Positions 27,482 to 40,328 of a DNA stretch of 64,000 nucleotides are shown here, in pieces. This stretch comes from an uncultured Alphaproteobacteria bacterium. GTDB lineage: Bacteria > Pseudomonadota > Alphaproteobacteria > HIMB59. The notes under the pieces are model-generated. The model had not been told where the DNA came from, made no database searches, and was given only the letters and a program-made list of their open reading frames with translations. How positions within the stretch are numbered: position 1 is the first letter of the stretch; the number at the start of each line of letters is the position of its first letter. The stretch lies in the NCBI GenBank assembly GCA_902610175.1, contig CACLUR010000001.1:248001-312000 (forward strand), given 5' to 3'. Made by a program: the position numbers and the translations under genes.

Positions 27482-29103
27482 AGATTTTTCACTGTTTCTC
27501 TTAACTCGTACTTTTGAATTTTTCCAGTTGATGTTTTTGGTAGGACCTGAAATACAAAAGTTTTAGGCATTTTAAAACCAGCTAAGTGCTCTCTACAAAA
27601 TTTCTTTAACTCATCTTCTTCTACTGTTTGACCTTCAATTAACTCTATAAAAGCACAGGGTGTCTCACCCCATTTTTCATCAGGTCTAGCAACAACTGCT
27701 GCTAATGATACTGCAGGGTGCTTTGTAATAATATTTTCAATTTCTACAGATGATATATTTTCACCACCGCTAATAATTATATCTTTTGATCGATCTTTAA
27801 CTTGAATATACCCACTAGGGTGCATTACTGCTAAGTCGCCTGAATGAAACCATCCACTTTTCATCGACTCTTTAGTAGCTTCTTCATTTTTGTAGTACCC
27901 CATCATGACAGTATTTCCTCGGATCATAATCTCCCCCATGGTTTTTCCATCGGAAGGAACAGGTTCGAGTGTTTCTGGGTTCATGACCGATACCATTTCT
28001 GTGTGCGGATAGCGAACTCCTTGATAGGCTTTGAGCTCAGATCGCTTTTCATCTGCTAGATTATCCCAGTCCTTATTCCAAGCACAATGAACAACATGAC
28101 CGTAAGTTTCAGTCAGTCCATATACATGCATAACCTCAAAGCCTAAAGACTCCATTTTTTGAAGAATTGAACTAGGGGGCGGTGCACCAGCAGTCATAAC
28201 ATAAACCTTATTTTTCAATGCTTTTTGATCATCTGAAGGAGCATTTGCTATCATATTTAATACGATAGGAGCACCTCCAAAGTGAGTCACCTCATATTTA
28301 TCAATTAAATCGAAAATTTCTTTAACAACAATATTTCGTATAAATATTACACGGGCATGGAGCATCGCCAAAGTCCATGGATACCCCCAGCCATTGCAGT
28401 GAAACATTGGCACTGTATATAAATAAGTTAGCCGGTTAGGCATATTCCATGCAGTGATACTTCCCATTGACATTAAATAGGACCCTCTGTGATGGTACAC
28501 AACACCTTTTGGGTTTCCTGTTGTTCCAGATGTATAGTTCAGTGAAATAGCCTGCCACTCATCATCAGGTCTTATCCATTCAAACCCCTCATCACCTGTT
28601 TGCAGGAAACTTTCATACTCTAATTTCCCGATTGATGGAATATCTCCTAAACCTGCTTGTTTGTCATCAATATCAATAACGATGATCTCTCGGTTAACTT
28701 GAGAAATAGCGTCAATTGCTACATTGTGAAATTGTCGATCCACTATAAAAACTTTACAGTCACTATGATCTAGTATGTAAGCAACTGTTCTGGTGTCTAA
28801 ACGAGTATTAATTGTGTTAACAACACCTCCTGTCATAGGAACAGAATAATGCGCTTCAAATAATTCAGGAGTGTTTGCTGCCATAATAGAAACAACATCA
28901 CCTTTGCCAATTCCAACTTTTGTTAAAGCACTGGCAAATCGAGTGCATCGATCGTAAACTTGTCTCCAAGAGTACTTTCTTTCTTTATATACTATGGCTT
29001 CATAGTCGGGGTATACGTCTTTTATTCGATCAAGGAAACTTATGGGAGTTAAAGGAACAAAGTTAGCATCATTTTTATGCATTCCCTGTTCAAAATTATT
29101 CAT
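27478..29103 (-). CDS. Acyl-CoA synthetase, AMP-forming (DmdB/FadD-like)
   Basis: 541 residues of the ANL superfamily. It has the P-loop YTSGTTGNPKGVVYHHRGS, adenine-binding GLTETYG, GWFHSGDLAV and the C-terminal catalytic lysine in LPKTSTGKIQKYELRE. The overall style is that of medium-chain or methylthiopropionate ligases (DmdB-like), so a straight-chain fatty acid or 3-methylthiopropionate are both possible substrates. Its start shares one base with the upstream FadN-like stop, so activation and beta-oxidation steps are encoded together. Confidence 0.85.
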   Translation of the reverse strand: MNNFEQGMHKNDANFVPLTPISFLDRIKDVYPDYEAIVYKERKYSWRQVYDRCTRFASALTKVGIGKGDVVSIMAANTPELFEAHYSVPMTGGVVNTINTRLDTRTVAYILDHSDCKVFIVDRQFHNVAIDAISQVNREIIVIDIDDKQAGLGDIPSIGKLEYESFLQTGDEGFEWIRPDDEWQAISLNYTSGTTGNPKGVVYHHRGSYLMSMGSITAWNMPNRLTYLYTVPMFHCNGWGYPWTLAMLHARVIFIRNIVVKEIFDLIDKYEVTHFGGAPIVLNMIANAPSDDQKALKNKVYVMTAGAPPPSSILQKMESLGFEVMHVYGLTETYGHVVHCAWNKDWDNLADEKRSELKAYQGVRYPHTEMVSVMNPETLEPVPSDGKTMGEIMIRGNTVMMGYYKNEEATKESMKSGWFHSGDLAVMHPSGYIQVKDRSKDIIISGGENISSVEIENIITKHPAVSLAAVVARPDEKWGETPCAFIELIEGQTVEEDELKKFCREHLAGFKMPKTFVFQVLPKTSTGKIQKYELRETVKNL

Positions 29104-31442
29104 TAGTTTTTTAGTCTTCTCCCCGTAGACAGCATTGCATGGATCCTATCCCTCGTCTTATTGGATTGTATTAAATTTATCAAAGACTGTCGCTCTAAAT
29201 CATATAGATCGGCTTCTGACAATTCTTTTGATTTAGTTGTATCACCCCCGCTAAGTACGGTTGCTAAATGAAGACCAATATCAACATCGTAGCCAAAAAT
29301 GATCTTTTTTTGCTCTAAATCCAATAAAACTTGGTGCATTTTCTCTTTTACCTCAGGTCCGCTTAGTGTGAACTTTGGCTTTTCAGGAGCGGAATATCCA
29401 TTCTTTAATAATGATACTTGATTAAAGGCCTCCACAAGAAGATTATCTCTGTTCAAAACGAAAATATCATCATCTAGAAAAAATTTATGCTTTTTAGCTT
29501 GCAATGGGGAATGGGCCATTAGGCCATATCCTATAATATCAAATACTTGAAGAGCTGCTTGATCATGGTCATTTACATATTTTTTGTCTTGTACCCATCT
29601 CCATAATAATTCTTTACATCCACCACCACCTGGAACAAGGCCGACACCTGTTTCTACTAAACCTAAAGTGCTATTCATATGTGCAACCATCTTAGAAGTT
29701 TGACATGCTACTTCAAAACCACCTCCAATAGCTAAACCTGCAACAGCACTAACTGTTGGTTTCGACGCATATTTCATTTTCATACACGCGGATTGAAAAT
29801 CAGATAGGTATTTATCTATACCTTTCCAGTCTTTCACGTCAGCTAAACCAATCATGGTATTTAAATCAGCACCTGCAGAAAAATTCATAGCCTCATTATA
29901 AACAACTAGACCTTGATAATTATCTTGTTCAAGACGGTTAACTGACTCCTCTAAAATTTTCATGGCATCTGCGTTTAAAGCATTTGCCTTAGTGTGAAAC
30001 TCACAACACAGTATCTTCTGTTCTCGAGGTTCATCATTAAATTGCCAAATGGTTGCAGCAAAATTTCGAGATAAAGGATTAGCATACTTTTTGTGGTCAC
30101 CTAATCGGCGAACACCTTCTCCCCTGGAGATAAACTTCATACCTGCTTCATGATTATAGGCGCGTGAAGAAGTAGAGTCATAAGGCTCTTGTTTTAATCT
30201 AATCATAGTTGTTAGCAACTCAGGAACATCTTGTTTTTCATCTTGAAGTCGTTGGACAAATTTGGTGAGCCCGTACTCATTTAATAATTCAAATGGACCC
30301 TCATTCCAGTTAAATCCCATACGAAGTGCATCATCTATATCTGTTACCCTTGATGAAACTTCAGGAATGCAAAATGCGCTATAATTAATAATTTTAGCTA
30401 ATACTGCAAAAGCATATCGACCATACTCACTATCATCATCAAGGAGTGCTTTGATGCCCTCTTTCTCAACTCTTCTAGCGATTTCTAAATCTACTTTATC
30501 AAAATCATAATAACTCATGTCTGACGTGTTCATGGCTTTAACATGTTCATCACCCTCAACAATTGTTGTTTGATAAAAACCACCAGGGCCCTTATTTCCA
30601 TTAAAACCTTTTTCAAGTAACTGCTCGACCAAAGGGTGAGGTTTTACTACATCCATAAAAGGATCATTTTCTTGTAATTCTTTTTTAAAGCTAGCAAGAA
30701 CATCTTTCATCAAATCAATTCCAATGAGATCATAGAGTCCAAAAACACCTGTTTTAGGAATTCCTAATGGTCGGCCAAATAAGGCATCTGCAATTTCTAC
30801 TGGAAGGCCTCGTTCTAAAGCCTCATACATTGCCACTTGCATCGCGTAAACACCAATTCGATTACCAATAAAACCAGGGCTATCGTTACAATTGACAATT
30901 CCTTTACCTAACTCATTTTTACAAAAATCTCGAAGTCCACTCATCTTATCTTTATTCATCGTTGGTGTTTCAACGATCTCTAATAATCTCATAAATCGGA
31001 CAGGGTTAAAAAAATGAGTAATACAAAAATCTGCTTTCATGCTATCGGACATCTCTTGTGTCAGAATTGAAAGAGGAATAGTCGAAGTATTAGATGAAAT
31101 AATAGAGTTGGAGCTGCGAACTTTATCAATTTGGGAGTAAAGTTTGTGTTTGATATCAATACGCTCAACAACAGCTTCGATAACCCAATCAGCATCTTTG
31201 ATTTCATCAAAATCGTCATCGAGGTTACCTGGTTTGATATGATCAATTCTAGATCTTTCTACTAATAGAGGCGGATCTGACTTTTTGATAATATCAATGG
31301 CGTTTTCAGAAATTTGGTTGGGTTTGTCTTTGCCTTTGAGATCGAGCAAAACTACCTGGCGGTTAGAATTAGCCAAATGGGCGGCAATACCTGAACCCAT
31401 CGTTCCAGCGCCAATTACAACAATTTTATTGAATTTACTCAT
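29103..31442 (-). CDS. 3-hydroxyacyl-CoA dehydrogenase / enoyl-CoA hydratase fusion (FadN type)
   Basis: 779 residues with the dehydrogenase first and the hydratase (crotonase) domain last, the FadN order rather than that of E. coli FadB. Dehydrogenase landmarks are VIGAGTMGSGIAAHLAN (NAD site), SSNTSTIPLS and THFFNPVRFMRLLE; the second helical half includes GNKGPGGFY. The crotonase part shows NFSAGADLN and AGLAIGGGFEVA with ETGVGLVPGGGG. It catalyses two central beta-oxidation steps. No thiolase or acyl-CoA dehydrogenase follows in this operon. Confidence 0.92.
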   Translation of the reverse strand: MSKFNKIVVIGAGTMGSGIAAHLANSNRQVVLLDLKGKDKPNQISENAIDIIKKSDPPLLVERSRIDHIKPGNLDDDFDEIKDADWVIEAVVERIDIKHKLYSQIDKVRSSNSIISSNTSTIPLSILTQEMSDSMKADFCITHFFNPVRFMRLLEIVETPTMNKDKMSGLRDFCKNELGKGIVNCNDSPGFIGNRIGVYAMQVAMYEALERGLPVEIADALFGRPLGIPKTGVFGLYDLIGIDLMKDVLASFKKELQENDPFMDVVKPHPLVEQLLEKGFNGNKGPGGFYQTTIVEGDEHVKAMNTSDMSYYDFDKVDLEIARRVEKEGIKALLDDDSEYGRYAFAVLAKIINYSAFCIPEVSSRVTDIDDALRMGFNWNEGPFELLNEYGLTKFVQRLQDEKQDVPELLTTMIRLKQEPYDSTSSRAYNHEAGMKFISRGEGVRRLGDHKKYANPLSRNFAATIWQFNDEPREQKILCCEFHTKANALNADAMKILEESVNRLEQDNYQGLVVYNEAMNFSAGADLNTMIGLADVKDWKGIDKYLSDFQSACMKMKYASKPTVSAVAGLAIGGGFEVACQTSKMVAHMNSTLGLVETGVGLVPGGGGCKELLWRWVQDKKYVNDHDQAALQVFDIIGYGLMAHSPLQAKKHKFFLDDDIFVLNRDNLLVEAFNQVSLLKNGYSAPEKPKFTLSGPEVKEKMHQVLLDLEQKKIIFGYDVDIGLHLATVLSGGDTTKSKELSEADLYDLERQSLINLIQSNKTRDRIHAMLSTGRRLKN

Positions 31443-31495
31443 ACCGACAGAAGAGGGATAATAGCAAAAGTTAAAAATTATTATATAACTAAGTT

Positions 31496-31810
31496 GTGAG
31501 CACTCCGAAAAATGTAAAATGCTGCAAATGCGGCAAAATTTTGAAATTTAGATTAGAGGGTTATGCAACACCTAGTGAATTTGTATTAGATGAAAAAGAT
31601 GTAGATGGAATGCCAGTATTTTTATGTGGTTCAATAAAAGGATGTAGATTTAAAATTGACCCAGTTGATTATATGAAAAATCGAGGAAACGATAATCACA
31701 TAGTAAAAACAGTTGACGCTGATCTAGATTTTTCGAATTGGGACTTTGAAAATTTACCAACAAAAAAAATCAAGAGATCTATATTTCATAAAGTAAAGAA
31801 ATTCATCTAA
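31496..31810 (+). CDS. Small cysteine-rich protein of unknown function
   Basis: 104 residues, GTG start, divergent from the FadN-like gene. Cys9, Cys10 and Cys13 (CCKCGK) plus two later cysteines in FLCGSIKGCRF make a likely zinc-ribbon fold. The tail (about 89-104) is basic. I do not recognise the family. Confidence 0.55.
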   Translation: MSTPKNVKCCKCGKILKFRLEGYATPSEFVLDEKDVDGMPVFLCGSIKGCRFKIDPVDYMKNRGNDNHIVKTVDADLDFSNWDFENLPTKKIKRSIFHKVKKFI

Positions 31811-31811
31811 A

Positions 31812-32282
31812 TTAATTAAATTTACTTCTCCATTTATTGTAATATTTATTCCATTTATTTAATAACTTTTGTGCCTCAAAGGCTTTGTGATTATTTTCGT
31901 ATTTATATTCTGTATAATAATCAATTAGTAATATGTGAGCCTTTCTAAAATATTTCTCATATTTTTTTTTTAAATCTTTATTAAATAAACTAGTATCTAC
32001 TCTGTCTAAATAGTAATTTTCTACATCATACGAATATTTTAATGATTTTTTTAAAAGACTTATTAATTCTACTCTATCATAATAATCAAAAACTCCAGTC
32101 CTATCTGCTTTATCAATTATTTTCATTGCTTGATTATATGTATTTAGAGAAATGATAAAGTTATCTCTCGATTTTATTAATCTTTCTTGCTCATCAGCGT
32201 ATAAAAAATTAGTGCTAAAAAAAAACAAAATATAGTTTAAAATAATCAATGTGAAAAATTTTTTATTATTTGCGGTATACAT
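31812..32282 (-). CDS. Putative secreted protein of unknown function
   Basis: About 156 residues from ATG 32282 (an in-frame ATG at 32303 would add seven). A hydrophobic stretch NKKFFTLIILNYILFFFSTNFLYADE looks like a signal peptide with cleavage before DEQ. The mature part is helical, charged and rich in Lys, Tyr and Asp. It is convergent with the small cysteine-rich gene, and its start overlaps a divergent membrane-protein gene, so one of the two N-termini may be wrong. Confidence 0.55.
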   Translation of the reverse strand: MYTANNKKFFTLIILNYILFFFSTNFLYADEQERLIKSRDNFIISLNTYNQAMKIIDKADRTGVFDYYDRVELISLLKKSLKYSYDVENYYLDRVDTSLFNKDLKKKYEKYFRKAHILLIDYYTEYKYENNHKAFEAQKLLNKWNKYYNKWRSKFN

Positions 32283-32442
32283 AATACTCACCTTATATGG
32301 CATTAGCGTACTTTTTTTTGGATTTTTCTACAACTATCAATATGCAATTACTCATGGTTTTTGGAGTTGGTTGTTTTTTGGAGAATTTGTTGCTAGTTTT
32401 AAAGCTATAATTTGGCCATTATTTGAGTTTAAAATTTTATAG
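32251..32442 (+). CDS. Small membrane protein, two predicted helices
   Basis: 63 residues, GTG start, with one helix at about 3-25 and a second segment in SWLFFGEFVASFKAIIWPLF. The aromatic C-terminal half looks like a real conserved protein rather than a shadow. It is head-to-head with a secreted-protein gene, overlapping it by about 32 bases. Function is unknown. Confidence 0.45.
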   Translation: MKNFLLFAVYIILTLYGISVLFFGFFYNYQYAITHGFWSWLFFGEFVASFKAIIWPLFEFKIL

Positions 32443-32461
32443 CTTAATATCAAAAATATAT

Positions 32462-32551
32462 TGGTGCAGCCGGATCAGGAGTCGAACCTGCATCTTCCCT
32501 TCCCGCAAGAAATCTCAGTGTGGGACGCTTTTCCATTTAAGCTAAGGCCGC
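32462..32551 (-). tRNA. tRNA-like sequence with aberrant anticodon domain
   Basis: 90 bases on the minus strand, ending in an encoded CCA. The acceptor GCGGCC pairs with GGCTGC; the D arm is canonical (TA, then GCTT / AAGC stem with A14, G18G19 and A21), and the T arm has GCAGG TTCGACT CCTG. Between them no normal 5-bp, 7-base anticodon arm can be drawn: TCCC can pair with GGGA but leaves a loop of about 15 bases. CTGAGAT in that loop would suit a tRNA-Leu(GAG), and 90 bases fits a class II tRNA. The T stem also mismatches or extends (GAT/ATC). It may be a decayed tRNA or an unusual functional one. Confidence 0.5.
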
Positions 32552-32580
32552 ATAGGTAAATTTTAATTTCATCGAAAGTG

Positions 32581-32808
32581 TTATTTCCCATATTTAGGAA
32601 TGACAGGAGGCTCGGGCTCCTCTGGCAATGTACATTGCTCTTTGTTAGCGGGTAATTCATCAAAAGGGCGTGTTACCCAGATGTGTGAAAAAATAATGTC
32701 CCCATTTTCATTTTGAAAGCATTTCTTACCAAAATGAAGTTGACTGTGATTTTGTTCATCAGCAACATACAAGAATAAAACTGCTGCTAGAAAATGTAAA
32801 AAAGTCAT
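32581..32808 (-). CDS. Small putative secreted protein
   Basis: 75 residues with a hydrophobic N-terminus (TFLHFLAAVLFLYVA) and two cysteines (Cys30 and Cys59) that could form a disulfide. The C-terminus is proline-rich (PEEPEPPVIPKYGK). Its ATG overlaps the stop of the upstream gene by four bases, which supports translation. No family is recognised. Confidence 0.5.
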   Translation of the reverse strand: MTFLHFLAAVLFLYVADEQNHSQLHFGKKCFQNENGDIIFSHIWVTRPFDELPANKEQCTLPEEPEPPVIPKYGK

Positions 32809-33407
32809 GTTTTTAGTCCTTTCTGAGAATTGTTTAGGCTAGCTGAAATGGGATCAGGTATTTTTTTGCAATGCCTATGAGCTCTGTCCATGGCTTCCTC
32901 TACTTGAGGCATAGCCCACTGTATTGTAGGTAAGTCTATGAATGTTCTTAAAGCTACTGGTTCCTCGAAAGGTACATCAGTGACTGTTAAGCGAGAGCGT
33001 TTATGAAAAGTATAATATTCTTTAATCGTTTCATGATTGTAAGAGCCCATCCCAATTAAAATCATGTGTCCATTCTTATATGGATATATTTCATGCACCA
33101 TTCCGGTGGTTGAATGACCATTTTCCTGGAGTTCAATTTCTTTATCTAATAATTTTGTGAGATCAGGGTGAACTGATAAAGTAAATAATTCAAAGAATTG
33201 GAGAACGCGATCACAATTATTTTTGGTCATAACAAAAATTATATTTTCTGAGTCTTCAACATCACCACTACGTTCGATTGCAATCATTTCCTCCTCCAAT
33301 AATTGAATATTCCAACCATGAAATCTTTCTAAAGTCATCGCTGAGCTTAAGGAGAAAATAAATAGAGAAGTAATTATTAGTATTAAGTATTTTCCTCTTT
33401 GCACCAC
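32805..33407 (-). CDS. Putative secreted two-cysteine protein
   Basis: About 200 residues from GTG 33407; the frame is open upstream to ATG 33584, but that extension reads as non-coding, and GTG 33407 or 33404 gives a signal peptide (KYLILIITSLFIFSLSSA). The mature chain has one cysteine in KNNCDRV and another at the end in HRHCKKIPDP, after a conserved-looking helix. It resembles the general layout of the 35.9 kb secreted protein on the other side of the channel gene. Function is unknown. Confidence 0.5.
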   Translation of the reverse strand: MVQRGKYLILIITSLFIFSLSSAMTLERFHGWNIQLLEEEMIAIERSGDVEDSENIIFVMTKNNCDRVLQFFELFTLSVHPDLTKLLDKEIELQENGHSTTGMVHEIYPYKNGHMILIGMGSYNHETIKEYYTFHKRSRLTVTDVPFEEPVALRTFIDLPTIQWAMPQVEEAMDRAHRHCKKIPDPISASLNNSQKGLKT

Positions 33408-33660
33408 GGCTAATGTACAGGAGGATGGGATTAGCCGTAGCACAGAAAGGAACCATGAAAAAACCACCTCAATTTTTCCTCTCTCTTTTTTTTGTTTGTC
33501 ATTTGTTAACCTGGTAGGAAATGACTTAGAGAAGGAGTAACTAGAAAACAGAAAGGAAGAGAGAGGTCTTTGCACTGAAGACAAAGATATTAAATTTTAA
33601 AAATAAAGATTGGTGAGATATTAAAATTTTTTAGACAATAATATAAGTTTTGAAATGTAT

Positions 33661-35013
33661 CTAATTATAAACATTCAAGGCAAATAAAGTAGTGACAACT
33701 GGATAGGTTAAACACAGAATAACGAAGAGATTTTTGTCGTAATTTTGATGAGCTGTAATCTCTTTTGATCGAGAGTAAAAAAAATAATTTATGATGGTAA
33801 TAAACGTTGAAAACCCTGTAAATAAGTATGAAGCCAATATCATTGTGTCCAGAACGGTGAAATCATTTATTTTTGGAACATCATCTCCAAATGTAAATTG
33901 AAATACTACTAAAGTAAGTAAAGATCCGAGACTGACAGCTAATTTAGACTCTAGCTCACGTGATGGTATCAAGAAAACCATAAATGATAAATAAACCAAA
34001 AATATCACAGGTAAGATAATCTTTAGGATATAGTAAAAAGATTTACGATTAAGATCAAAACTGTATTCCAGTTTTTGCAGTACACCTTGTCCATAAATTT
34101 TAGTATCACAACAATTTAGAGTGTGATCATTAATTTGCCACTCATACAAAATTTCATTGCCATCCCTCATAATAATTTCTGGGTCGTATAACGAAGACGT
34201 GCTTAAATCAATGTCTTGGAAGATAAAATCAGCTGATGTGGAAATATTATCAAAAGGAAATTTTTTAAAATCTGAGGAATTCGTAACTTGATAATTAATT
34301 TGTTGTTTGAGCACAAAATTAAAAGGATCAGATTTATCGTTTGTGATAAGTAAACTTTTAAAGGTTATATCATTTATAAAAGATCCTGTTTGTGTAGTTT
34401 CAAATGTAGGATACCAAATTTTTTGTAAAATATTTTCAAGCTCTGCTGACTTTCTAAAAATGCATTTAATAGGTGATTTATCAAGATCTGTTAAATTGAA
34501 AAAATTATGTATTAGATCTTCATTTTGCCACTGCAAGTTAACCTCTAAATTTAAATTTGATTTACTACTTTGTTGAATGACCTCAAAATCATTTAATAGT
34601 ATATCTGCCTCAACTATAGGGTGACCCAGATAAGGAATTCTTTTAAGTTCAACTATCTCCTCTTTCCCATCTAAACGTTGAACAGTTAGCGAGAGGTCTC
34701 TCATTGCTGAAGTCTCTAGTAAGTTGGATAAGTACAAGTAGGCATCAACATCATCGGAAGCAACAGGTTTTTGATCAACAGCTAAGATGCGGTCTCCAGC
34801 CTCGAGAGAAGTATTAAAAGCATAAGATCCAAAGCGTTTTTTGTTGATAATAGGTTGATTTTGCTCAAGAACTACACCGCTATCGTTATAAGCTAGTCTA
34901 ATGTTAGAAGTTTCTCTGAAGTCTTTTTTTAGGAGTCGTTCACAAATTTCTGCTCCCCAGCTAACACTAGAAAAGAAAACCCAAAATCCTAAAATTATCC
35001 CCCTTAAAAACAA
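33661..35013 (-). CDS. PDZ-like domain fused to a Cys-loop-type pentameric ligand-gated ion channel
   Basis: 450 residues, TTG start. Order: signal peptide (1-20, ends SWGA); PDZ-like domain (about 40-125, core SLEAGDRILAVDQKPV); extracellular ligand-binding beta domain (about 135-320) with an IWYP tryptophan at 200 and the family's Pro-loop KFPFD at 251-255; then four membrane helices, M1 about 325-349, M2 about 355-377, M3 about 386-412 and M4 about 428-448. M1-M3 (KIILPVIFLVYLSFMVF, KLAVSLGSLLTLVVF, LDTMILASYLF) align by eye with the bacterial channel ELIC. Glu353 and Glu355 lie at the inner mouth of M2, which would favour cations. The gene follows a small HTH-like gene after one base. Ligand and ion are unknown. 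Confidence 0.85.
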   Translation of the reverse strand: MFLRGIILGFWVFFSSVSWGAEICERLLKKDFRETSNIRLAYNDSGVVLEQNQPIINKKRFGSYAFNTSLEAGDRILAVDQKPVASDDVDAYLYLSNLLETSAMRDLSLTVQRLDGKEEIVELKRIPYLGHPIVEADILLNDFEVIQQSSKSNLNLEVNLQWQNEDLIHNFFNLTDLDKSPIKCIFRKSAELENILQKIWYPTFETTQTGSFINDITFKSLLITNDKSDPFNFVLKQQINYQVTNSSDFKKFPFDNISTSADFIFQDIDLSTSSLYDPEIIMRDGNEILYEWQINDHTLNCCDTKIYGQGVLQKLEYSFDLNRKSFYYILKIILPVIFLVYLSFMVFLIPSRELESKLAVSLGSLLTLVVFQFTFGDDVPKINDFTVLDTMILASYLFTGFSTFITIINYFFYSRSKEITAHQNYDKNLFVILCLTYPVVTTLFALNVYN

Positions 35014-35014
35014 A

Positions 35015-35479
35015 TTAGAGTGATTTTAACACACTCTTAATTTTACTCAACTGGTCATCTAATTTTTGAATGTCTTGGTAAATTTTCTCTTTTTCATGTG
35101 GGACTATTTTTGATCCTCCTGAACTTTTCTCATCCATTGACTCACGTACAGCATCCATTAAATCTCCCAATCTTCCGCCTATTGCTAATATCTCTGATTG
35201 TACTTCACTTTCACTAGCAGGTTTTTCAGGTTGGGCAGTTGCTAGATAATCTTTCAAAAAATTGCTAAAGGGAGTTTTTTGGTAAATTTTATGCATAGCA
35301 TGCTCTAACCGTATGACAGTTCTAAATTGTATATTCCTATCAGTATCGTCGGGATCAGCACATTTATATATATAAGACTTGGTCTTCCCAGTGATATCTT
35401 GAATGTCTTGATCACTTAAATTTTTAAGAACCTCTTTTAGGGTATGTTCAATGGTGATAATTTCTTTTGTTTTAGACAT
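35015..35479 (-). CDS. Small HTH/regulator-like protein upstream of the channel gene
   Basis: 154 residues. An N-terminal segment (LSDQDIQDITGKTKSYIYKCADPDDTDRN) looks like a helix-turn-helix of the phage CII-like kind; the C-terminal third (about 105-154) is charged and probably coiled-coil (EKIYQDIQKLDDQLSKIKSVL). It ends one base before the ion-channel start, so the two are translated from one message. A role in controlling the channel gene is inferred from position only. Confidence 0.6.
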   Translation of the reverse strand: MSKTKEIITIEHTLKEVLKNLSDQDIQDITGKTKSYIYKCADPDDTDRNIQFRTVIRLEHAMHKIYQKTPFSNFLKDYLATAQPEKPASESEVQSEILAIGGRLGDLMDAVRESMDEKSSGGSKIVPHEKEKIYQDIQKLDDQLSKIKSVLKSL

Positions 35480-35585
35480 ACCCCACTATAGCAATTTATG
35501 TTAAGCGGGTAATCAATAATCTATGTCCAAAAGTAAAAAAGCTTTGGACTATTTGTAGAAATAATAATTCCTCATTATTGTTATC

Positions 35586-35906
35586 ATGAAGTCTAATTAT
35601 ATTACTCCTACTTTAGGTAGAAGATTATCCTCTAATAAAAAAAATGAACCCCAATCCCTAAGAGATATTGAAGAGTATTTGCGTTGTTTAGCACAAATCA
35701 GACAAGAAAATAATATTTCAGTTGAGGATGTAATGCAGCATTTGAATTATTCTCGTAGCACTCTTGATGCTCTTGAGAATGGTAATCTAGAATTTATTCA
35801 GTATCCCCTAAATTACTTTTTTACAAGGCAATATGCCTCTTATCTTAAAGTACCCTTTCCTCAGCAATTTTTAATGAGCCATTTTAAACCAGGAGAAAAG
35901 AAGTAA
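35586..35906 (+). CDS. RodZ-like/XRE helix-turn-helix protein
   Basis: 106 residues. The core IRQENNISVEDVMQHLNYSRSTLDALENGNLEFIQYP followed by FFTRQYASYL matches the N-terminal HTH of RodZ-type proteins, but there is no transmembrane segment or RodZ C-domain. It is divergent from the regulator/channel pair across 106 bases, and its stop shares a base with the next ATG, so it heads an operon of secreted proteins. It may be the local regulator. Confidence 0.7.
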   Translation: MKSNYITPTLGRRLSSNKKNEPQSLRDIEEYLRCLAQIRQENNISVEDVMQHLNYSRSTLDALENGNLEFIQYPLNYFFTRQYASYLKVPFPQQFLMSHFKPGEKK

Positions 35907-36433
35907 TGAGAGCATTATTATTGTTATTTATCAGTGTTTTTTTAACCAATTGTTCTCTAAAAGCAGAAGGTAGCCCTATGCATCATGAATTTGATAATTG
36001 GATACATATGGAGGCTCAAGAGGAAAACTTAGACTTAGTCTTTAGTTTGGAAAACCAAGATCAAATGATTATTTTTATTGTCGATCCAAACTTAAGTTGC
36101 GATGCTCGTTTGGTTTATACCAATCGAGAATTTGAGCCCAAAGATTTTGATGTTATGAGTGGTGAAACTTTTGATTGGAAGCTCTCAGGTCAATCTTATC
36201 AAGGCGCAAATGCGAGCCGATTGAATGCCGATGGATACGTTCGGTGGGAGTTAATGAGTTTTTATAAACATCACTTCTCCAAGCTGGAAGAGCTGTTGTC
36301 CAAAAGAGGACAAATTTCATTTTCTATCAATGATCCACTCGACAGATTTGAAAAACAAGAGATAGAAATGAAAGCAAACGGACTCAGTTCTGCTCTTAAC
36401 AGCGCTTTGGATACGTGCCAGGGGTGGACATGA
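35906..36433 (+). CDS. Putative secreted two-cysteine protein
   Basis: 175 residues with a signal peptide (about 1-20, LLLLFISVFLTNCSLKA; the Cys has Asn before it, so this is not a standard lipobox). The mature chain has cysteines in NLSCDARL and DTCQGWT, the latter after the helix GLSSALNSALDTC. Spacing and ends resemble the secreted protein at 32.8-33.4 kb. G+C is visibly higher than in the core genes (about 50% in parts). Start and stop overlap its neighbours. Confidence 0.55.
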   Translation: MRALLLLFISVFLTNCSLKAEGSPMHHEFDNWIHMEAQEENLDLVFSLENQDQMIIFIVDPNLSCDARLVYTNREFEPKDFDVMSGETFDWKLSGQSYQGANASRLNADGYVRWELMSFYKHHFSKLEELLSKRGQISFSINDPLDRFEKQEIEMKANGLSSALNSALDTCQGWT

Positions 36434-36879
36434 TTAAAAAATTATTATTTGTAGTCATATTCCTAACCTTTTCTTTACAAATTAAAGCAGAAATTAATCA
36501 GTCAACGATTTTTGTGCTGGGTAGTTTAGATAAAGAAACAAAGAAATTATTTAAAGAAACAATTTATGACCAAATACACAATTACGCTCGAACAATTAGT
36601 ATAGAAACACAGTCGAACATATATGTGTTTCCCTATCAAAATCAAAATCAATGGCAGGTTGTGAGTTTGCATGTCCAAGGAAATGAAAACCATTCATATC
36701 TTCTCGATCTCTCTTTAGAGGGTCACCCTCTTCGGTCTTTAGATGAAATCCGCCAACTCGTTGGTCTAGATGGTTCTCTGAAATACATAGGTTGGAGCAG
36801 CTATGATGAGCTCCCACCAGAAAAGGTTTTTATTGCTTCAAAAATTATCGCTCAAGATTATCTGTATTTGTATTTTTAA
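36430..36879 (+). CDS. Putative secreted protein of unknown function
   Basis: About 149 residues. ATG 36430 overlaps the previous stop (ATGA); an in-frame ATG at 36415 is less likely. A signal peptide (LLFVVIFLTFSLQIKA) precedes a mixed alpha/beta chain without cysteines. No recognisable family. It is part of the HTH-secreted-secreted-membrane operon. Confidence 0.55.
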   Translation: MIKKLLFVVIFLTFSLQIKAEINQSTIFVLGSLDKETKKLFKETIYDQIHNYARTISIETQSNIYVFPYQNQNQWQVVSLHVQGNENHSYLLDLSLEGHPLRSLDEIRQLVGLDGSLKYIGWSSYDELPPEKVFIASKIIAQDYLYLYF

Positions 36880-36889
36880 AAAAAGTTCT

Positions 36890-37066
36890 ATGAGTGTTCT
36901 AGTCTTTGTTTCTTTGATGTCTTATCAAAGCGGTTTCATCTCTCTAGTGGTAATAGTAGGTGTCTTATTATATTCGTTTATAGTCTTATTTTTTTTCTTA
37001 ACCTACGACCATCAAAGATCGTCAACTCCATCAATAGCAGAAACCACCATTAACGACTCAATATAA
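36890..37066 (+). CDS. Small single-pass membrane protein
   Basis: 58 residues from ATG 36890 with one strong helix (FISLVVIVGVLLYSFIVLFFFLTY) and a polar tail. A longer in-frame start at 36803 would overlap the previous gene by 77 bases and is unlikely. Its tail overlaps the minus-strand zinc-ribbon gene by 55 bases, so one of the two may not be real. Confidence 0.4.
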   Translation: MSVLVFVSLMSYQSGFISLVVIVGVLLYSFIVLFFFLTYDHQRSSTPSIAETTINDSI

Positions 37067-37239
37067 CGCTTTTTGCTACAATCGTAGCAAATCGTAATCA
37101 TTTCATCGCTGATTTTATTGATATATTTCTTTGAGACTTCCTTGTAGTCACCACATTCAGTGCACTTGTTATAAGGAATTTCATTATTTTCAAATAACTC
37201 CTCTTTACCATTCCACCAACCCATAACTATTACTATCAT
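37012..37239 (-). CDS. Small zinc-ribbon protein
   Basis: 75 residues with CTEC and CYDC pairs about 25 residues apart and a lysine-rich middle, a plausible zinc ribbon. ATG 37224 is an alternative start that removes MIVIV. There is no clear ribosome binding site for either. It is the third small four-cysteine protein in the window. Function is unknown. Confidence 0.5.
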   Translation of the reverse strand: MIVIVMGWWNGKEELFENNEIPYNKCTECGDYKEVSKKYINKISDEMITICYDCSKKRYIESLMVVSAIDGVDDL

Positions 37240-37387
37240 AAATAAAATATACTTTGGAAATACATGCTCTAAAAAGTATTAAAGTTGTTTATAACTTGAT
37301 TTCAATTGGATTATTAAGTTATTGCAAATTGTAAGTTGAAATAATACATTTTAAGTTCACTTGAAAGATCGCTCAAAGGAGGATGAA
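37240..37387 (+). promoter_or_regulatory. Upstream region of the sugar ABC ATPase gene
   Basis: An AT-rich gap of about 150 bases that must hold the promoter. A half-site TGAAAT (37338-37343) followed by ATTTTA loosely resembles the operators upstream of the SorC gene. The ribosome binding site AAAGGAGG (37375-37382) lies five bases before GTG 37388 and decides that start over the TTG at 37361. Confidence 0.4.
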
Positions 37388-38467
37388 GTGGCAGATATAA
37401 AAATTGATAACATAAATAAGTTTTATGGTGACGTCCAAGTTATCAAAAATGTTTCTTTAGAGATTAAAAGTCAATCCTTTACAGTATTAGTAGGTCCCTC
37501 TGGTTGTGGAAAATCTACAATGCTGAGAATGATTGCAGGTTTAGAGGATATAAACTCAGGTACAATTTCAATTGATGGCACAGTAGTAAATGACTTACCG
37601 CCAAAAGAAAGAAATATCGCAATGGTATTTCAATCTTATGCCTTGTACCCTCACATGACTGTATTTGATAACATGGCATTTGGATTAAAATTAGAGAAGA
37701 GATCTAAAGAAGAAATAGATGAACGTGTTCAAGAAGCTGCAAAAATATTGCAAATTGAAGAATACTTATCTCGTAAGCCGAAGCAATTATCTGGTGGTCA
37801 AAGACAAAGGGTTGCTATAGGAAGAGCTATTACAAGAAAGCCTCAAGTATTTTTATTTGATGAGCCATTATCAAACCTTGATGCTGCTCTCAGAGTTCAA
37901 ATGCGTGTTGAATTAGCTAAGCTACATGACAGGCTAAATGCGACCATGATATATGTAACGCATGATCAAACTGAAGCAATGACGATGGCTGATGACATTG
38001 TTGTTCTTAATAATGGTGTTATTTCACAAAAGGGATCACCATTAGAGCTTTACAATGATCCGGATAATTTGTTTGTAGGAGGCTTCATTGGATCTCCTAA
38101 GATGAATTTTATTTCTTCAAAAATACTCAGTGCAAGTAATAGCAATACAGAACTTGACTTGTTAGGTTCATCCAAAATAAATGTACCAAAAAGTTTATCT
38201 AGCGCAACAGAGGGTGACTCAGTTATGTTAGGAATTCGACCTGAACATCTAACAGTCAATGAAGATAGTGATGGCAGTTGGGAGAGTAAGGTGTTTGTTG
38301 TAGAAAAACTTGGATCTGGAACTTTTCTTTACCTTGAAAAAGAGGGAGAACCTTTAGTTGTTCAAACAGAGGGAGACTCCAACATTAAAGTTGGGGATAC
38401 TGTCAAAGTTGGCTTTTCTTCATCTCGTTGCCATATCTTTAATAGCTCTGGACAAGCTTTTAAATAG
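37388..38467 (+). CDS. ugpC: CUT1 sugar ABC transporter ATP-binding protein (MalK/UgpC type)
   Basis: 359 residues from GTG 37388. Walker A GPSGCGKST, Q-loop VFQSYALYPHMTV, signature LSGGQRQRVAIGRAI, Walker B VFLFDEPLSNLD and the His-loop VTHDQ are all intact, followed by a C-terminal TOBE/regulatory domain with GIRPEHLTV. It energises import of a sugar, polyol or glycerol phosphate. It is the only CUT1-type ATPase in the window, while two CUT1 permease pairs are present, so it probably serves both. The symbol reflects the family, not proof of substrate. Confidence 0.9.
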   Translation: MADIKIDNINKFYGDVQVIKNVSLEIKSQSFTVLVGPSGCGKSTMLRMIAGLEDINSGTISIDGTVVNDLPPKERNIAMVFQSYALYPHMTVFDNMAFGLKLEKRSKEEIDERVQEAAKILQIEEYLSRKPKQLSGGQRQRVAIGRAITRKPQVFLFDEPLSNLDAALRVQMRVELAKLHDRLNATMIYVTHDQTEAMTMADDIVVLNNGVISQKGSPLELYNDPDNLFVGGFIGSPKMNFISSKILSASNSNTELDLLGSSKINVPKSLSSATEGDSVMLGIRPEHLTVNEDSDGSWESKVFVVEKLGSGTFLYLEKEGEPLVVQTEGDSNIKVGDTVKVGFSSSRCHIFNSSGQAFK

Positions 38468-38500
38468 TTTAAATGTATTACTAATTGATAAAGGGGATTG

Positions 38501-39265
38501 ATGTTTTTAGACAAATTTAAATTGGAGGATAAAATTGCTCTCATCACTGGAGGTACAAGAGGTATAGGTTTATCTATAGCTCATGCTCTTGGTGAAGCAG
38601 GTGCAAAATTAGTTTTAGTTAATAGAACAGACCCGGTTGGAGGAGTCCAAGAACTAAAAGATGCCGGATACGATGTAAATTTTTTTGAAGGAGACTTGCT
38701 TGACCGTTCAGTTCCTCAAAAGACTATTGACTTCACATTAGAAAAGCATGGAAGAGTAGATATTCTTGTAAACAATGCAGGTGTTGCTCAGCACGGAGAC
38801 ACTGAAAAATTTAATGATGATTTATTGGATAAAATTATGGATCTGAACGTGGATGCCGTTTTTCGCATGTGTCGCTCTGCTATCCCCCCTATGAAAAAAC
38901 AAGGTGAAGGTGTTATTTTAAATATTGGATCTATTTCTGGTTTGGTATCTAATATCCCCCAGCCCCAAACTGCTTACAACGCCTCAAAAGCTGCGGTGCA
39001 TATGATGACAAAAAGCTTAGCTAGTGATTATGCTGATCAAAATATTCGCGTAAACGCAATAGCCCCTGGTTATATAAGAACAGAAATGACTAACTTACCT
39101 AAGGAAAATGAACATTGGTACCCAACTTGGAATGAGCTGACGCCGATGAATAGGATGGCAGAAACACATGAGGTTGCTTCTGCTGCTCTTTTTTTATGTA
39201 GCCCTGCATCAAGTTACGTCACTGGCGAGGTATTAGTAGTCGATGGTGGATACACTACTAGATAA
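38501..39265 (+). CDS. Short-chain dehydrogenase/reductase, copy 1
   Basis: 254 residues, ATG 38501 behind AAGGGG. Classical SDR: TGGTRGIG cofactor motif, NNAG, catalytic Ser in SISG, YNASK and C-terminal VDGGYTTR. Probably oxidises a polyol or sugar acid imported by the neighbouring transporter. It is nearly identical over long stretches to the minus-strand SDR at 44872-45636, forming an inverted repeat. Confidence 0.88.
   Translation: MFLDKFKLEDKIALITGGTRGIGLSIAHALGEAGAKLVLVNRTDPVGGVQELKDAGYDVNFFEGDLLDRSVPQKTIDFTLEKHGRVDILVNNAGVAQHGDTEKFNDDLLDKIMDLNVDAVFRMCRSAIPPMKKQGEGVILNIGSISGLVSNIPQPQTAYNASKAAVHMMTKSLASDYADQNIRVNAIAPGYIRTEMTNLPKENEHWYPTWNELTPMNRMAETHEVASAALFLCSPASSYVTGEVLVVDGGYTTR
38705..38934. 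repeat. Inverted-repeat arm within SDR copy 1
   Basis: Two exact-match tracts with the opposite-strand SDR lie here: 38705-38796 (92 bases) and 38858-38934 (77 bases), corresponding to 45341-45432 and 45203-45279. The two gene copies have equal length with no indels. Confidence 0.85.
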
Positions 39266-39316
39266 AAGATACTAAAACATATATCGCTATTTTTATCTAT
39301 TTAATATATTCAACAG

Positions 39317-39348
39317 TGAAATATATTTCTAATCTGAAATTTATTTCA
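39317..39348. promoter_or_regulatory. Tandem palindromic operators upstream of SorC regulator 1
   Basis: TGAAATATATTTCT (39317-39330) and TGAAATTTATTTCA (39335-39348), 18 bases apart, in the 118-base gap before the SorC gene. The same pair recurs before the binding-protein gene. A further inverted repeat AATCAAA / TTTGATT (39356-39362, 39371-39377) overlaps the expected start-proximal region. Confidence 0.65.
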
Positions 39349-39383
39349 TTGAATTAATCAAATATATGTGTTTGATTACCTAA

Positions 39384-40328
39384 ATGAAAAGTGATGATAC
39401 AAAAGTACTTGATGAAGCACTTATTTCTAAAAAATGCGCATGGCTTTATTATGTAGGAAAACTAAATCAAAATCAGATAGCAAAGAAAGTAGGTCTTAGC
39501 AAGATGCGAGTGCATAGGTTAATTGCTTTCGCAGAAAAAAAAGGCTTCGTAAAAACTTTTGTTGAAGGCGGCTTTGATGAAACTTCAAAATATGAAAATA
39601 TTTTAAAAGAAAAATATCACTTAAAAATTAGTGAAGTTATTCCAATTGAAGATGTAAATAAAGATCCAAATGAAATGATAGGTGCTGCTGGTGCTAGATT
39701 TATAATGAATCAAATTAATGAAAAAAACATAAATGAATTTGGAATAGGAACAGGCAATACTCTAAACAAAATAGCTAAATGGCTGCCTAAGATAAATAAA
39801 AGAATTGATTTCATAACAGTTAATGGATCTCTAACTTCTCACAATTCAATACAAACTGAAACAGGTATTAATCAAATAGCTCATAAAACCAATGGTGAAT
39901 GTTATAATGTTGGTATTCCATTAATGGTTGAGTCGATTGATCAAAAAAAGATTTTAGAAAAAATAAAATTTATAAAAGAAATAATGAATAGAGCAAATAA
40001 TACTAAAATAAAAATAGTAGGTGTGGGTGGATTGTTTGAAACCTCGCAGATAGTTAAGTCTAAAATTTTTAGCAAAGAATCAATAGAAAAAATTAAGAAG
40101 GCTGGAGCTGTTGGAGAGGTTGCAGGTAATTTTTTTGACAAAAATGGGAAATATATCTCTATTAAGGAGACGCAGAAAATAACTAGTGCAGATATTGAGT
40201 CTTTCAAGAAATCAACAACTGTATTAGTTGCTGGCGGCAGGCAAAAAATCTCACAAATAAAATCAGTCTTAAAAAGTGGCTTATTTACTGGATTAATTAC
40301 AGATGAAGAAACAGCAAAACAACTCTGA
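39384..40328 (+). CDS. SorC-family sugar-binding transcriptional regulator 1
   Basis: 314 residues. The N-terminal HTH is NQNQIAKKVGLSKMRVHRLIAFAEKKGFV; the rest is the SorC sugar-phosphate-binding domain with GIGTGNTLNKIAKWLP, a GEVAGNFFDKNG segment and VLVAGGRQKISQIKSVLKSG. It probably controls the adjacent CUT1 operon through the paired palindromes before itself and before the SBP gene. The inducer is unknown. Confidence 0.88.
   Translation: MKSDDTKVLDEALISKKCAWLYYVGKLNQNQIAKKVGLSKMRVHRLIAFAEKKGFVKTFVEGGFDETSKYENILKEKYHLKISEVIPIEDVNKDPNEMIGAAGARFIMNQINEKNINEFGIGTGNTLNKIAKWLPKINKRIDFITVNGSLTSHNSIQTETGINQIAHKTNGECYNVGIPLMVESIDQKKILEKIKFIKEIMNRANNTKIKIVGVGGLFETSQIVKSKIFSKESIEKIKKAGAVGEVAGNFFDKNGKYISIKETQKITSADIESFKKSTTVLVAGGRQKISQIKSVLKSGLFTGLITDEETAKQL

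Follow-up and report, generated by a model that had tools for sequence, protein, structure and literature searches.

Background

The solved bacterial pentameric ligand-gated ion channels (pLGICs) that are nearest in sequence to the channel described here are GLIC and the channel of PDB entry 6fl9, which we take to be sTeLIC. The likeness lies in the later part of the ligand-binding domain (LBD) and in the transmembrane part, and the Pro-loop and the M2 pattern are common to them. To our knowledge, GLIC carries neither a PDZ domain nor vicinal cysteines. The PDZ domains of the periplasmic proteases RseP, DegP and CtpA are among the nearest in the PDB by profile or by model; in those proteins the PDZ domain accompanies a protease, whereas here it is predicted on a channel with no protease domain. 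The related DegS reads Y-x-F tails.

Additional domains ahead of the LBD have been described in other bacterial pLGICs. DeCLIC likewise has an extra periplasmic N-terminal domain, but this consists of two jelly-roll lobes with calcium sites and makes up about half of the receptor mass, whereas a single PDZ domain of about 80 residues is predicted here (PMC12664993). Prokaryotic pLGICs with PBP-I, Cache or MCP-N domains also bear a sensor-type domain fused N-terminally, and these fusions are described as small-molecule-binding, unlike the PDZ domain considered here (PMC549065). The word PDZ is absent from the main texts of PMC549065 and of a 2016 survey, according to which no biological role was known for any pLGIC of a unicellular organism (PMC4795631). 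The author of a preliminary description of this DNA knew of no PDZ-pLGIC system, and no PDZ domain fused to a pLGIC was found in the open-access literature among the matches listed, judged by title and start of abstract; on the same basis, the literature naming both a pLGIC and a PDZ domain concerned animal receptors, drug-target guides or synapses. What appears to be new is a genus-level, PDZ-bearing pLGIC; the pLGIC kind itself is already known.

The channel subunit and its domains

The window (the whole stretch of DNA analysed, 64,000 nucleotides from an uncultured alphaproteobacterium of the order HIMB59) contains the channel gene and its neighbours listed in the table; genes are named below by their first coordinate.

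Features of the channel locus in the window (by eye: judged by eye)
Feature	Position	Strand	Basis or remark
fadJ-type gene	29103..31442	-	other edge of the putative hot spot
Small cassette protein, 75 aa, probably exported (by eye)	32581..32808	-	kept next to the 259-aa gene
Exported (by eye) cassette protein, 259 aa	32805..33584	-	kept downstream of the channel; no Pfam match
PDZ-pLGIC subunit gene (predicted)	33661..35013	-	450 aa, TTG start; ORF list, Pfam and PDB matches, orthologues
Four-helix transmembrane domain, residues 326-450	33664..34038	-	Neur_chan_memb
pLGIC ligand-binding (extracellular) domain, about residues 128-325	34039..34632	-	phmmer to glycine receptor and GLIC
Vicinal cysteines C301-C302, predicted loop C	34108..34113	-	channel alignments
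Pro-loop KFPFD, residues 251-255	34249..34263	-	invariant in 13/13 aligned channels
PDZ module, about residues 46-125	34639..34878	-	Pfam and PDB profiles; missing in L055, L056 and the first 70 residues of L086
Predicted signal peptide, residues 1-21	34951..35013	-	hydrophobic N-terminus ending SWGA, by eye
Conserved partner, 154 aa, possible DNA-binding regulator	35015..35479	-	weak profile matches
Inverted repeat GTCCAAA-TTTGGAC, operator-like, between divergent genes	35525..35549	.	11 aligned loci
HTH_25 protein, 106 aa, divergent	35586..35906	+	Pfam; kept in the cassette
Exported protein, 175 aa, probable lipoprotein (by eye)	35906..36433	+	no Pfam family over cut-off
Exported protein (by eye), 154 aa, C-terminus L-(Y/H)-F	36415..36879	+	candidate PDZ ligand
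Small gene with CxxC pairs, zinc-ribbon-like (by eye)	37012..37239	-	one edge of the putative hot spot

The claimed channel reading frame is present and starts one base past the stop of the 35015 gene. At 22 other loci this junction measured 1 base with a TTG start in 19 cases and 4 bases with an ATG start in 3. Its assignment to the pLGICs was borne out by Neur_chan_memb in Pfam (31.5 bits against a cut-off of 28.1) and by phmmer searches of the PDB, in which the best match was 6hz3 (the proton-gated channel GLIC; E 3.4e-12, residues 237-413), with 6fl9 at E 3.9e-11 and the glycine receptor 5bkf at E 6.4e-11 over residues 128-443. The earlier comparison with ELIC needs correcting: among solved structures GLIC, 6fl9 and glycine-receptor chains come closest, and ELIC is not among the best 60 of 308 PDB matches. 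Because the Pfam ligand-binding model PF02931 gave no match in the window protein, the LBD assignment rests on the phmmer alignments, in which homology of the extracellular domain to the glycine receptor begins at residue 128, and on the invariant IWYP, KFPFD and Arg323. KFPFD and IWYP, both part of the earlier claim, and the pre-M1 Arg323 are kept in all 13 aligned channels, with P253, D255 and R323 invariant. The Pro-loop is a signature of the superfamily (PMC4795631). The signal peptide was also recognizable by eye, as claimed. An AlphaFold (AF2) monomer model of the full protein reached a pLDDT of 41, too weak to use (for this model and that of the N-terminal domain, shallow alignments of 11 and 10 rows were supplied). 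Within channel alleles dN is far below dS, which indicates that the gene is kept functional.

Unlike the ELIC/GLIC-type layout, the LBD does not follow the signal peptide directly, and the PDZ module lies between them. In the window protein PDZ_2 scored 19.0 bits against a cut-off of 27 (E 0.0017), and PDZ_2, PDZ_6 and PDZ all remained below their cut-offs. Across an alignment of 13 channels, Pfam at E <=0.1 gave PDZ_2 in 12, PDZ_6 in 11 and PDZ in 7, and PF00595 exceeded its cut-off in two of ten channels scanned (L059 and L050; 37 bits against 23.2, E ~4e-9). When a PDZ profile from seven orthologues was searched against the PDB, the top match was an Aquifex site-2 protease homologue with a whole-sequence E of 2e-5; this chain contains two PDZ domains, and the better of its single stretches reaches an i-Evalue of only 0.13. 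The best listed short single-domain chain, harmonin, had E 0.0016, and the best 60 of the 149 matches are PDZ proteins by name. The AF2 model of the N-terminal domain had a pLDDT of 55, with residues 1-41 and 107-117 under 50, and Foldseek on this weak model returned a best E of 0.014 and none <=0.001; CtpA, RseP and DegQ were among the best ten. The scores of the window protein under all three Pfam cut-offs, the low AF2 confidence and the i-Evalue of the first-ranked chain would suit a degenerate or unrelated beta domain instead of a working PDZ. Given the two orthologues well over the cut-off and the PDZ names throughout the best 60 profile matches, we regard that reading as very improbable, and the N-terminal PDZ of the preliminary description is upheld at the level of sequence profiles.

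The window gene therefore very probably encodes an exported pLGIC subunit with an N-terminal PDZ domain. Five such subunits would presumably assemble as a pentamer in the inner membrane, with the mature N-terminus and its PDZ domain in the periplasm. Two further cysteines, C24 and C184, are kept in all 12 aligned pLGICs, with or without PDZ, and possibly form a disulfide linking the N-terminus to the LBD.

A two-way cassette with two putative regulators

The channel had been described as one of a pair with a regulator gene. The two-gene junction is indeed conserved and stands behind a partly conserved dyad, but the unit is larger than a gene pair: it is a cassette that runs in both directions and comprises at least seven genes. 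The helix-turn-helix attributed to the adjoining gene was not recovered: the 35015 protein matched Phage_CP76 at E 0.051 (Pfam) and capH at E 0.016 (PADLOC), with no HTH family or any other over its Pfam cut-off. The clear HTH_25 belongs to the divergent 35586 gene, which scored 32.1 bits against a cut-off of 24.6 and matched HTH_VI of PADLOC at E 8.7e-5. PHROGs returned weak transcription-regulator matches for this gene and one weak match of unknown function for the lipoprotein gene. Among 11 aligned loci, the dyad between the divergent genes has an exact right arm in 10, the exception being a single change in L060, and an exact left arm in 6; one or both of the putative regulators might act at this shared dyad.

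The 35015 partner is present in 31 of the 52 genomes of the genus, namely the same 28 that carry the PDZ channel (see below) and G002, G008 and G009. In the 35906 product, Cys16, which closes the signal region, is invariant in 6/6 proteins and the C-terminal region is conserved too. In G036 (L044, L104) frames are broken or ends altered in each of the channel, 35015, 36415 and 32805 genes, so that either the whole cassette is decaying or the assembly contains errors.

Some genomes of the genus contain a second pLGIC. These second cassettes own a divergent copy of the 35015 partner, about 29% identical (L049:9875-10336, L050:9471-9932 and L052:6954-7415). By eye, the 466-aa second channels of L049 and L050 include a stretch that resembles a PDZ domain, with PDZ_2 at E 0.23 in L049; in that of L054 (511 aa) the N-terminal region is longer and gave no Pfam match, and that of L052 (388 aa) has no PDZ-like N-terminal region. 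At all three loci scanned (L049:6045-8295, L052:3389-5371 and L054:3564-5899), the other pLGICs of the genus adjoin a gene for a PrsW-family intramembrane protease, and the L054 locus also holds a DUF2167 gene.

Distribution and modularity of the PDZ domain

The channel was matched at E 1e-5 in 31 of the 52 genus genomes (order HIMB59). In 28 of the 52, the same fusion and gene pair recur, the PDZ type being counted by matches that reach the N-terminus; this number includes three genomes with an incomplete channel, which is cut off by a contig edge in G033 (residues 2-71) and G012 (residues 2-125) and has a broken frame in G036. Because PDZ-type orthologues occur in so many genomes of the genus, the PDZ-pLGIC is not a chance find. 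The remaining three matching genomes are G002, G008 and G026.

Outside the genus, the channel was matched in 7 of 385 genomes of a class sample, two of which belong to this genus, and in 8 of 398 genomes of a phylum sample, one being the window's own genome; the samples represent a small part of those groups. Ten channels from nine of the 12 other matching genomes gave no PDZ match in Pfam at E 0.1 (L067 was scanned from its likely signal peptide onward, L066 was judged by eye only, and L063 and L123 are fragments), and two of those scanned bear a periplasmic-binding-protein domain instead. Among the judgeable channels of both samples, the PDZ-type pLGIC appears confined to the genus. A search of the order gave four matches in the sister family, which were partial, below the cut-off and contained stops, and were taken as chance. 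Relatives of the channel were absent from the IMG/VR, phage and plasmid collections, as were relatives of the 35015 protein from the phages; with no tRNA in window positions 28000-40000 either, carriage by mobile elements was set aside.

Three related genomes carry the cassette without the PDZ domain. In G002 (L055) and G008 (L056) the same cassette encodes a channel of 404-405 aa, in which the conserved N-terminal stretch joins the LBD directly, and in G009 (L086), where the contig stops after 70 channel residues, the direct junction of N-terminus and LBD is already visible. Judged from these sequences, the PDZ domain is a modular insert that is present or absent as a unit. The claim of a PDZ-bearing channel thus holds for the window and its orthologues and does not extend to these three cassettes.

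Allele replacement between conserved flanks

The channel gene itself varies in a segmented manner. When 4.8 kb of the window were compared with L050/L059 in 120-base steps, the flanks were 88-99% identical, whereas identity was 48-69% from PDZ to M1 and 42-78% in the rest of the channel, beyond which it rose again to 88-98%. In the same comparison five flanking genes had dS values of 0.08-0.26; those of the PDZ were 1.7-2.2, and the LBD and M1-M4 had reached saturation. A different segment is affected in L034 and L045, where the transmembrane part is replaced (M3-M4 dN 0.58, dS saturated) and dS of PDZ and LBD (0.36-0.60) exceeds that of the flanks (0.05-0.31). In L039 and L041 the flanks are more distant from the window (mostly 74-92%), and PDZ and LBD are closer to it (74-91%) than those of L050/L059. 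The trees of flanks and channel differ and repeat this reversal, with SH-aLRT values of 97.9 and 99.9 for opposed groups; the AU test rejects neither constraint at 0.05 (p 0.142 for the flanks, 0.057 for the channel), and the case for allele replacement therefore rests on the steps in identity and dS. These suggest that some genomes replaced most of the channel gene between near-unchanged flanks.

Pore, loop C and a candidate PDZ ligand

A hydrophobic-x-hydrophobic carboxyl end is the type of ligand bound by class II PDZ domains, and the 36415 product ends in this way: its last six residues are YLYLYF, YLFLHF or YFFLHF in five aligned proteins, with L152 and F154 invariant in 5/5, while 32% of all its columns are invariant. 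The 28 carriers of this gene among the 52 genomes are exactly those of the PDZ channel (its end is missing in G036), and the three genomes whose cassette lacks the PDZ do not have it. Such identical sets are expected of genes in one linked cassette, which travel together anyway; moreover, the three PDZ-less genomes seem to form a single outgroup, so that a joint gain or loss of PDZ and 36415 may have happened only once. The PDZ domain evolves faster than the LBD: its dN exceeds that of the LBD in 12 of 13 locus pairs and equals it in one (win-L039), and between L057 and L058 dN is 0.316 for PDZ, 0.099 for the LBD and 0.024 for M1-M2. In L059 the PDZ allele has been replaced (PDZ dN 0.54), yet the 36415 protein shows hardly any change (dN 0.011); this disfavours tight co-evolution of the two. 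The conserved C-terminus of the 36415 protein may be structural rather than a ligand, and we hold its identification as the PDZ partner to be rather doubtful.

With M2 read ungapped back from 9' against GLIC, the window channel has E-2' (E355), K0' (K357) and L9' (L366). This pattern would be of the cation type, although the numbering hinges on the ungapped reading and the phmmer alignment sets a two-residue gap there. According to the 2016 survey, nothing about selectivity outside the Cys-loop clade can be read from its phylogeny (PMC4795631).

On the basis of these features, we consider the best overall explanation to be a PDZ-bearing, cation-type pLGIC subunit tuned by the tail of a periplasmic protein, an explanation to which we give an even chance. 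The ring of PDZ domains would read the C-terminus of a periplasmic protein, most simply the L-x-F end of the co-encoded 36415 protein, and binding of the tail would set the ease with which the LBD opens the cation pore. The broader proposal, that the PDZ domain acts as a protein-binding modulator of the channel, seems to us equally balanced between right and wrong.

The predicted loop C offers another site of control. The vicinal cysteines are invariant in 13/13 PDZ-type channels and absent from six other genus channels aligned, two of which are nearly identical. Such a pair resembles that of the nicotinic alpha subunit. In the literature no vicinal cysteines of bacterial pLGICs were found by title and start of abstract, and the word vicinal is absent from the main text of PMC4795631. 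The channel might accordingly be gated by a small molecule or by redox at the loop-C site, the PDZ domain helping as a tether or in assembly to place the channel at an envelope partner, without gating it. This would fit the distribution of the cysteines and the retention of the rest of the channel in the PDZ-less relatives. It agrees less well with a PDZ domain that evolves faster than the LBD, which is not expected of a mere scaffold, and the role of the cysteine pair is drawn by analogy with nicotinic receptors; we consider gating at loop C possible, if somewhat unlikely.

Tuning by a protein tail, the explanation preferred here, derives its interest from the cassette, which unites a pLGIC, a protein-binding module, a candidate protein ligand and natural PDZ-bearing and PDZ-less relatives and is conserved in an abundant ocean clade. 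It makes testable whether a periplasmic protein tail can control a Cys-loop-type channel, and it would offer, beside DeCLIC, a small model system for pLGICs that bear an accessory domain.

The genomic site and its defence genes in other carriers

The cassette lies between the small CxxC gene and the 29103 gene, which we named fadJ-type from its sequence and which was matched at E 1e-150 or better in 45 of the 52 genomes. Of the 28 carriers, 19 have the channel on the same contig as the fadJ-type gene, always on the 5' side of that gene and 1.3-33 kb away; in G010 the two are on different contigs and the neighbours of the cassette differ. The site was empty in 6 of 18 fadJ regions fetched, the CxxC gene being followed by fadJ within 61-100 bases, and none of the genomes concerned (G045, G027, G019, G032, G040 and G038) had a channel match. 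No ORF matching the pLGIC profile was found in any of the 18 regions. The gene at 39384-40328, considered as a marker of the hot-spot edge, proved too patchy.

In other carriers this site holds islands with more than 100 protein clusters, from which ten proteins were picked by hand as large or defence-like. Nine of these ten matched PADLOC at E 1e-10, in families comprising type I, II and III restriction-modification parts, DrmA, DrmB, a NERD helicase, MzaC and DruA; two proteins of the cassette-free G050 also matched PADLOC. As read from these regions, the site beside fadJ is a hot spot, and in other carriers it contains defence genes. For the HIMB59 family, shared positions have been reported to carry islands of hypothetical proteins as well as a BREX-like system (PMC10734472); the words ligand-gated and ion channel are absent from the main text of that paper. 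Judged by title and start of abstract, open-access literature gave no match for pLGICs in defence, nor for ligand-gated ion channel together with HIMB59 or defense island.

The cassette might therefore be viewed as a defence or conflict system, in which the exchangeable periplasmic part senses a protein of a phage or competitor and the open pore depolarises the cell. The restriction, DISARM, Druantia, MzaC and other PADLOC families between the CxxC and fadJ-type genes of other carriers, the patchy presence in 28 of 52 genomes and the swapping of channel segments between flanks 88-99% identical are all compatible with this. Nevertheless, neighbourhood is no proof, the more so with hand-picked island proteins; the channel matched no PADLOC family up to E 0.1, the window has small ORFs only and no defence gene between cassette and fadJ-type gene (just two, both without a Pfam match when scanned), and the 36415 and lipoprotein partners do not diversify alongside the channel. 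We judge a defence role improbable. A more specific form, in which a swappable PDZ/LBD sensor would watch the C-terminus of the co-encoded 36415 protein as a periplasmic guard and depolarise the cell when phage or envelope attack alters it, appears quite improbable; if it were true, pLGICs, which sister cassettes also place beside PrsW proteases, would add a new class of effectors to bacterial defence islands.

The two small ORFs of the window (31496-31810 and 31812-32303, within 31496-32450) are absent from L041, where the end of the cassette directly meets fadJ. In G050 (L071:76-11985), the same hot spot contains genes for a CHAT protease, a sigma-70-like factor and an anti-sigma-like small protein (by eye), together with a trypsin-like protease, DUF2167, PrsW and a 1398-aa helicase that matches PADLOC defence models.
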